This document shows positions 67 to 2,340 of a DNA stretch of 64,000 nt, in pieces. Every line of letters starts with the position of its first letter. The stretch's first letter is position 1. Position numbers and translations under genes: made by a program. Below the pieces are notes generated by a model. It had not been told where the DNA came from, did not search any database, and worked only from the letters and a program-made list of their open reading frames with translations. Source of the DNA: Cryobacterium sp. (GTDB lineage Bacteria > Actinomycetota > Actinomycetes > Actinomycetales > Microbacteriaceae); the NCBI GenBank assembly GCA_019638975.1, contig JAHBST010000001.1, positions 19,619 to 83,618 on the forward strand, read 5' to 3'.

Positions 67-2340
67 CTATTTCTCCAGCCCCGCTGGCCCCTTCTGTAAC
101 AAAATTGCGAACTGTTCGGCATTGAGAATCGGGATGCCCAATTGCTCCGCTTTCGTCAATTTCGAACCCGCACCAGGCCCCGCGGCCACAAAGTCGGTCT
201 TCGCGGACACGCTCGAGGCCGCCTTTCCTCCCGCGGCGATGATGGCTTCCGTGGCGCCCTCGCGAGTGAAGCCGTCGAGACTCCCGGTCGCGACGACGGT
301 CAACCCGGCAAGCGGTCCGCTCGCATCGCCGACGCCGCCCGGCCCCGGGTGTCCGGGCGTGGCGAACCGGACCCCGGCATCCGCCCATCGATTCACAATC
401 TCGAGATGCCAGTCGACGGCGAACCATTCCAAGAGCGCATCCGCGATGATGTCTCCGACTCCGTCGACCTCGGCCAACTCCTCTCGCGACGCTGCGCGGA
501 TGGCGTCGAGGGAACCGAACCAGTCCGCGAGAGCACGTCCCGCGACCGGGCCGACGTGGCGGATGTTGAGCGCGACGAGGAGTCGCCACAGCGGCTTCGT
601 CTTCGCTCCTTCGATGTTCTCCAGCAGTTCGAGAGCGCTCTTCGAGAGGATCGCGTCGTCGTTGCCATCGAATTCGCCGTCAGGATCATGCGGCGGGTCG
701 GCATCCTTTCCCGACTTCTTGCGAACGCGCTGGAAGGGAGTGACGATTCTCGGTTCCCCATCGTCGAGTTTGACAAGGCCCGTCTCGCTGTCGCGCACGG
801 CGACCCGGATCGGGAAGAGGTCGATGGGTCGAAGGTCGAACAATCCCGCTTCGGTGTGAAGCGGAGGATCGGACGGTTCGATGGGTTGGGTGAGGGCAGC
901 GGCGCTCACTTCACCGAGCCCCTCGATGTCCAGCGCGCCGCGACTGCCGATGTGCTCGACCCGACCGCGGACTTGCGCAGGACAGCCTCTCGCGTTCGAA
1001 CACCGTAAGTCGATGTCGCCTTCTTTTGCCGGCGCGAGGATCGTTCCGCACTCGGGGCACACGGTCGGCATGACGAACTCCCGCTCTGCGCCTGTGCGAA
1101 GCTCGACGACGGGGCCGAGCACCTCGGGGATGACATCGCCCGCTTTGCGGAGTACGACCGTGTCGCCGATCAGCACTCCCTTCGACTTCACGACATCCTG
1201 ATTGTGGAGGGTCGCCTGGCGAACCGTCGAGCCCGCCACTCGAACCGGTTCCATGACGGCGAACGGAGTGACGCGACCTGTGCGACCGACGCTGACGACG
1301 ATGTCGAGGAGCTTCGTGTTGACTTGCTCGGGAGGGTACTTGTAGGCGATCGCCCACCGTGGCGCTCGACTCGTTGCTCCGAGTTCGTCGTGGAGTGCAA
1401 GTTCGTCCACTTTGATGACGACACCGTCGATTTCGTGTTCCACGCTGTCACGGTGCTCGCCGAAGTGAGTGATGAAGCCGGCGGCGGCACGCGCGCTGTG
1501 CTCCACGCGAAAGTGCGTGCTGGTCGGGAGCCCCCATGCGGCGAGCAATTCGTACACGCCGGATTGCGTCGCGACGGGCGGGTTCGGCCATGCGCCGATG
1601 CCGTGCACGAGCATCCGAAGCCGCGATAAGCGGTCGCGCATCAATTCGAGTTGAGCCGGATTCTTTCCCTCTTCTTTTTGCCGCAGGCTGCCGGATGCCG
1701 CATTCCGAGGGTTCGCAAACACGCGTTCGCCGGCTTCTGCCTGATTCGCGTTGAGCTCGCGGAACGCCTCGACGGGAAAGAACACTTCACCACGTACTTC
1801 CACGAGGGGCGGATACCCTTCCCCCGCGAGTTGCGTCGGAATCCCGGTGAGGTAACGGATGTTCTGGGTGACGTCTTCGCCGACGACCCCGTCGCCGCGC
1901 GTCGCAGCGCTCGTCAACCGGCCATGGTCATAACGAAGGTTCAGGGCGAGCCCGTCGATCTTGAGCTCGCACAAGTAGTCGACGTGGCGTCCGGATGACT
2001 TCTCGACGCGCACGGCCCAGGCTTCGAATTCGTCGATGGAAAAGACGTTGTCGAGACTCAACATGCGTTCGGCGTGCTGCACCGGTGCGAACAGAGTCGT
2101 TTGCGCGCGGCCGCCGACGGTTTGGGTCGGGCTGTCCTGACCCTGCAGCTCGGGAAAAAGATGCTCGAGCTCTTCGAGCCGCCGCATCATCCCGTCGTAT
2201 GCGGCATCGTCGACGAGCACTTCGTCGCGCTCGTAATAGGCATCCCGCAATTCCAGGATGCGCGTCGTCAGCTCGTCGGCTTCTTCTTTCGCGCGCGAGC
2301 GCTCGGTCGCGGTTTCGCGGGTCTCGTCTGCGTCTGCCAC
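67..2340 (-). CDS. ligA: NAD-dependent DNA ligase LigA
   Basis: Seals nicks in duplex DNA during replication and repair, using NAD+ as AMP donor. The 757-residue product has the adenylation motif C-E-L-K-I-D-G with the AMP-accepting lysine at about residue 127, a four-cysteine zinc finger (Cys428, Cys431, Cys447, Cys453), helix-hairpin-helix repeats around 590-640 and a C-terminal BRCT domain (about 677-750). A stretch of about 50 polar and acidic residues (about 510-563) lies between the zinc finger and the helix-hairpin-helix region, so the protein is longer than the usual 670-700 residues. The start is GTG at 2340 with no strong ribosome site. It lies 44 nt downstream of a VOC gene on the same strand. 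The identification is secure. Confidence 0.97.

Follow-up and report, generated by a model that had tools for sequence, protein, structure and literature searches.

Replication in most bacteria depends on the NAD-dependent DNA ligase LigA, which is also under study as a drug target, and the contacts that it makes with DNA are usually taken from the E. coli enzyme. The ligA gene of a Cryobacterium sp., present in a 64,000-nucleotide stretch of contig JAHBST010000001.1 (assembly GCA_019638975.1) that we refer to as the window, encodes an extra segment of about 50 residues, which raises the question of where in the enzyme this segment lies, how widely and in what form it is shared, and what it may do.

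The ligase and the place of its extra segment

Located at 67..2340 on the minus strand, ligA is the first gene of the window, an open frame with a GTG start that encodes 757 amino acids. The protein scores above the cut-offs of the curated models PRK07956 (750.2 bits versus 369) and TIGR00575 (681.9 versus 444.45), contains the Pfam domains PF01653, PF03120, PF03119 and PF00533, with OB and BRCT domains present, and has the KxDG motif (K127, D129 and G130), which, together with the four zinc-finger cysteines (428, 431, 447 and 453), is invariant in a 44-row alignment. Judged by these curated models, motifs and domains, the protein is the NAD-dependent DNA ligase LigA, and its family suggests a role in replication. 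Neither a second NAD ligase nor a match to the ATP-dependent ligases of PF01068 was found in the genome, which is 89.9% complete. The sole tRNA found in the window, a tRNA-Arg (ccg) at 4564-4637 on the plus strand, is adjoined by a frame at 2800-4458 on the minus strand that is argS-like by eye.

The first-pass annotation had placed an acidic insertion between the zinc finger and the HhH domain, and our comparison with LigA of E. coli K-12 (2owo), which has the same order of NTase, OB, zinc finger, HhH and BRCT domains, moves it by one motif. The C4 zinc finger (residues 428-455, 976..1059, minus strand, matching PF03119) is followed by the hairpin of HhH motif 1, DIEGLG (residues 471-476, 913..930, minus), the equivalent of E. 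coli G455, which closes motif 1 in that enzyme, and by a linker between motif 1 and LFDL (residues 484-496, 853..891, minus) that exceeds its E. coli counterpart by 5 residues, with 27 residues up to LFDL in the window LigA versus 22. Since DIEGLG precedes it, the insert belongs within the HhH domain and takes the place of the motif-2 hairpin, i.e., the E. coli sequence GLERMG that ends in G489. The HhH motif 2 stretch (residues 504-572, 625..831, minus) has 69 residues versus 19 in E. coli, and the phmmer alignment of the query with 2owo is broken between residues 503 and 566, where residues 504-565 (62 residues) lie opposite only 12 (478-489). This analysis demonstrated that the short motif-2 hairpin is missing in the window LigA and that two modules stand there: module A (31 residues, 510-540, 721..813, minus), a conserved arm delimited by conservation and by structural models, and module B (residues 541-563, 652..720, minus), which is variable and includes a 15-residue acidic stretch (residues 548-562, 655-699, minus). 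The second helix of motif 2 then resumes with SKSALELL (residues 566-573, 622..645, minus) in both the alignment and the model. The extra residues at 510-563 are real, and correspond to 652-813 of the window, close to the 660-820 first annotated; their proposed location in the DNA-encircling part of the ligase is supported by phmmer, by the stretch lengths and by the AlphaFold2 model.

The best phmmer match to the window LigA was the M. tuberculosis enzyme (3sgi), with 58% identity over 405 Foldseek columns, and this has 25 chain residues (481-505) between the aligned parts versus 74 (491-564) in the window LigA. Many LigA rows from the class and order also do not contain the short E. coli-type hairpin. 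The HhH domain of LigA is described as binding the minor groove and closing the clamp in PMC5052709, PMC8123306 and PMC10504179; PMC8123306 gives R446, G455, R487, G489, G521 and G553 (E. coli numbering) as essential residues of the domain, with R487 and G489 essential for DNA binding according to works that it cites. Among the 25 rows of the phylum whose segment is as long as that of E. coli, R is present at 487 in 1 and G at 489 in 6, which weakens our initial idea of an arm standing in for two essential residues: the arm replaces the hairpin, not a conserved residue pair. Because many class and order rows are without the hairpin and these two residues are rarely kept, we did not use its absence to exclude LigA identity.

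A misread or chimeric assembly was rejected, since the frame is open and a segment of 112-119 residues is present in 7 of 7 other genomes of the genus; one LigA from the genus (L084) is identical to that of Cryobacterium sp. BB307 (L002, one of our named loci), an identity that assigns the window to the Microbacteriaceae. A recent foreign insertion in the window ligA was also rejected as far as composition can tell, with GC and GC3 of 0.63 and 0.75 in residues 504-564 and of 0.64 and 0.76 in the remainder of the gene. The acidity emphasized in the first annotation is there, in that the 15-residue stretch contains 7 acidic residues, the highest count of any 15-mer in the window LigA, but it is unremarkable by itself: a 15-mer with 8 or more occurred in 301 of 2000 shuffled versions of the protein. 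On these counts, we rejected acidity as the key feature. The mean net charge of the HhH2 stretch is -2.7 in the family (75 rows), -4 in the window LigA and +3.9 in Arthrobacter rows (15).

Distribution, conservation and predicted structure of the arm

The length of the HhH2 stretch (query residues 504-572) was measured using 354 of 359 loci. Outgroup rows, from the phylum but outside the class (23 of 73 genomes), have 19 residues in 20 cases, 21 in 2 and 60 in 1. Among the 61 rows from the class outside the order (60 of 91 genomes, with L354 repeating L158), which were taken from best matches favoring arm-bearing loci, 41 have 32 or fewer and 20 have at least 45. Within the order but outside the family, where 114 of 139 genomes were counted, 25 rows have 32 or fewer, 22 have 33-44 and 67 have at least 45, the longest stretch in the order being 139 residues. 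In the family of the window, Microbacteriaceae (75 rows from 74 genomes, L088 and L089 being from one genome), we observe 25 residues in 4 rows, 40 in 1, 48-53 in 5 and at least 57 in 65, i.e., at least 45 in 70 of 75. The same holds for 79 of the 80 named loci, a set biased toward the insert, as a peptide pattern taken from the insert served in part to collect it. The 25-residue form is present in many class rows and many families, and every row of two other families has exactly 49 residues (7 of 7 in f35 and 8 of 8 in f33). The 60-residue outgroup stretch (L177, family f72) is of unrelated sequence, the hairpin having seemingly expanded independently there.

The arm is common in its bacterial family and is not peculiar to this genome, and on these alignments the insert elaborates HhH motif 2, is widespread in the order and also occurs in some families elsewhere in the class. 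The earlier statement that typical LigA is without it is true of the outgroup, where 22 of 23 rows have 19-21 residues, but not of the order, given the 67 of 114 rows from other families with at least 45 residues. That annotation had also named, as an outcome that would refute it, an insertion general in the family and without conserved sequence. Half of this outcome is observed: the insertion is general in the family, yet strong conservation marks its first half. We did not find a description of an insert in actinobacterial LigA in titles and abstract openings of the open-licence literature, which does not imply absence from print; PMC5867870 lists, for Deinococcus, a LigA insert of 3 residues that falls within 101-169.

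Conservation separates the two modules. Over 85 distinct segments, comprising the insert-bearing family rows and named loci L002-L022 (some of these records are not called Microbacteriaceae), module A follows a nearly invariant pattern, V-x-D-x-E-T-G...G...P-F, with conservation of 0.96 at V515, 0.99 at D517, 0.95 at E519, 0.98 at T520, 1.0 at G521, 0.96 at G528, 0.98 at P535 and 0.99 at F536, and G521, G528 and F536 also reach 90% or more across the 44 aligned rows, which come from several families. Module B, which is present in the family of the window and in some relatives, was sorted by rough patterns into an acidic type (36 of the 85 segments), a Y-P-P type (19), an E-K-K-x-G type (9), a short type (5) and others (16). 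In comparison with nine loci, which represent eight proteins because L084 equals L002, module B has an identity of 0.19-0.65 and module A one of 0.60-0.80, versus 0.68-0.96 for the NTase, OB, zinc finger, HhH1, HhH3/4 and BRCT parts. Module B has the highest NG86 dN against 9 of 9 loci, and as dS is large or saturated we claim no ratio. That the acidic half is the fastest-changing of the compared stretches speaks against its acidic residues being an essential docking site. Streptomyces and Arthrobacter LigA among the named loci have an arm at the same place, with an HhH2 stretch of mostly 48-49 residues, but are without module B, unlike the window LigA; Streptomyces-like rows contain a similar PI-x-x-x-V-L-D arm, and Arthrobacter-like rows a basic arm of different sequence ending in V-P-Y-F.

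Structure prediction, proposed in the first-pass annotation as a check, models both modules as ordered. In the AlphaFold2 model of the window LigA, built from 44 rows (the window and 43 of the 80 named loci), block means of pLDDT across residues 501-570 are 95, 81, 81, 93, 88, 89 and 92, and strands are located at 512-514, 537-539 and 563-565. The full-length model has a pTM of 0.58, so that the domain arrangement is uncertain, and with it the way in which the arm points with respect to DNA. A model of the zinc finger and HhH part of L054 (Paenarthrobacter, Arthrobacter-like; 39 relatives) reached a pLDDT of 93.4 and a pTM of 0.87, and has two long strands at the arm, 93-100 and 103-112. Modules A and B are predicted to be ordered and strand-rich, and since both models show order, a disordered acidic loop was rejected. 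Foldseek returned ligases as the top matches to both models, with E. coli LigA on DNA (2owo) third for the window model and second for the L054 domain, and the latter also gave weak matches to HhH proteins.

Loss, transfer and exchange of the segment

Arm-bearing (45 or more residues) and other rows were compared on a core tree of 292 rows, made using FastTree with the segment left out. At least 15 state changes occur on this tree and, when checked as a clade-specific signature indel, the insert proved to be present in 70 of 75 family rows and also in rows of other families. The four family rows without both modules (L223, L224, L226 and L227) form one clade with a support of 99, and they keep the longer linker of the family (27-28 residues versus 22), which points to loss of the modules. 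With both modules absent from these 4 of 75 rows, the modules are dispensable in some cells. The four genomes concerned are 1.4-2.0 Mb; genome size alone was rejected as the cause of loss, since five others of 1.4-1.8 Mb keep an arm (L207, L211, L212, L218 and L228).

Several LigA proteins of other families are nested in the clade of the window's family, for example L157 and L159 (f41), L142 (f3), and f9/f14 rows such as L123, L124, L130, L236, L250 and L252, and this nesting suggests transfer of the whole gene. In two genomes of genus g117 (f14, same order; L362, L363, L365 and L366), the best LigA match is just 33-37% identical (G197:C2:297709-299673 and G211:C11:303553-305523), far below other members of the order, and the housekeeping ligase looks to have been replaced by a distant LigA. 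Several genomes of the class and order, some of them Streptomyces-like, contain another LigA-like match, with about 40% identity (G129, G171, G229, G304 and others).

One genus of family f10 contains both states, with a Microbacteriaceae-type segment in three rows (L126, L145 and L244) and none in five. Sliding windows place these three nearer to Microbacteriaceae within residues 451-582, and nearer to their five congeners, or equal in one window, outside approximately 341-582. Of the diagnostic sites inside 451-582, 13 of 14 (L126), 12 of 14 (L145) and 15 of 16 (L244) show the donor-type state, and of those outside it 16 of 84, 28 of 79 and 25 of 77, respectively. The five arm-less congeners, used as controls, have 3/14, 0/13, 0/13, 1/14 and 1/13 inside the interval, with one of them (L249) at p = 0.049 (Fisher); these p values are optimistic, as the interval was chosen after inspection of the sliding windows. 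Donor-type sites are also present in f10 at 345-386, and the tract may be longer or double. The f36 rows show the donor-type state at 7/13 and 8/13 sites inside and 7/75 and 11/76 outside, against a comparison group of two rows. Residues 477-508 of f33 and f35 are closer to Microbacteriaceae (0.63 and 0.62) than to f22 or f27 (0.44-0.49), which is not so in most other windows.

In f10, and more weakly in f36, the segment looks to have been exchanged by recombination inside the gene, although loss of an ancestral arm with rewritten flanks is a possible alternative. Extending exchange to the whole class, the segment between HhH1 and HhH2 might be an exchangeable cassette, with arm-bearing and arm-less versions swapped by intragenic recombination to give lineage-specific clamps. 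This broader proposal is one that we hold with more doubt than belief, and we marked it down slightly once its half that concerned an essential hairpin fell away.

Possible roles of the arm

Because the HhH motifs of LigA bind the minor groove of DNA, we tentatively favor, at a little under an even chance, a novel mode of action in which the arm makes or supports DNA contact or clamp closure. The short HhH2 hairpin is replaced by module A, with a variable module B added in the family of the window and some relatives; module A would take over, or support, the minor-groove contact of HhH2 or closure of the ligase ring, and module B would serve as a tunable outer surface, in a segment that can be lost and that intragenic recombination has apparently moved from one lineage to another. 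We found no DNA-bound structure with the arm, and the contact is proposed from E. coli. The acidic mean charge in the family of the window is unsuited to a simple additional grip on DNA, and R487 and G489 are rarely kept even in short relatives. The rarity of these two residues brought our assessment down from an even chance and slightly raised two other explanations.

The arm, and above all module B, could instead be a docking surface for a protein partner such as the sliding clamp, a polymerase or RNA polymerase, in line with the partner recruitment suggested in the first-pass annotation. Module A is conserved and the stretch is charged, as such a surface might be, and LigA partners have been proposed elsewhere, in an integrative model of RpoB with LigA (PDB 9a6z). 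This entry matches as a whole ligase, however, and is silent on the insert; the charged module B is the part that changes fastest, with its low identity across the nine loci and an acidic type in fewer than half of the segments (36 of 85), and the searches made gave nothing pointing to a partner, and we regard docking as rather unlikely. Unlikely too, in our assessment slightly more so, is a nearly neutral expansion of the surface at an insertion-tolerant hairpin, with module A conserved only for folding. Such tolerance would fit the wide variation in HhH2 length in the order, up to 139 residues, the 60 residues of another sequence in outgroup L177, the clade in which both modules are absent and the 25-residue forms in many families, but it sits poorly with the near-invariant V, D, E-T-G, G and P-F of the 85 segments, with three positions held at 90% or more across several families, and with retention of the insert in 70 of 75 family rows.

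Overall, the insert is a real, family-wide and partly conserved elaboration of an ordinary enzyme, and its apparent exchange between lineages is the more interesting observation. Should one HhH contact prove to have been rebuilt in many Actinomycetes, E. coli would be an unsuitable basis there for modeling how the clamp closes or where inhibitors bind at HhH2 (e.g., “site 2” in PMC8123306). Because nature offers ligases with the arm, without it and with an exchanged one, ready-made pairs are at hand for probing HhH2 function. The same domain contains a second expansion point, in that the stretch from HhH1 to LFxL is 56-108 residues long in families f3, f4 and f12 (e.g., L280, L305, L308 and L346) versus 22 in E. 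coli, and is lengthened in 9 of 10, 7 of 7 and 5 of 6 rows of these families, respectively.
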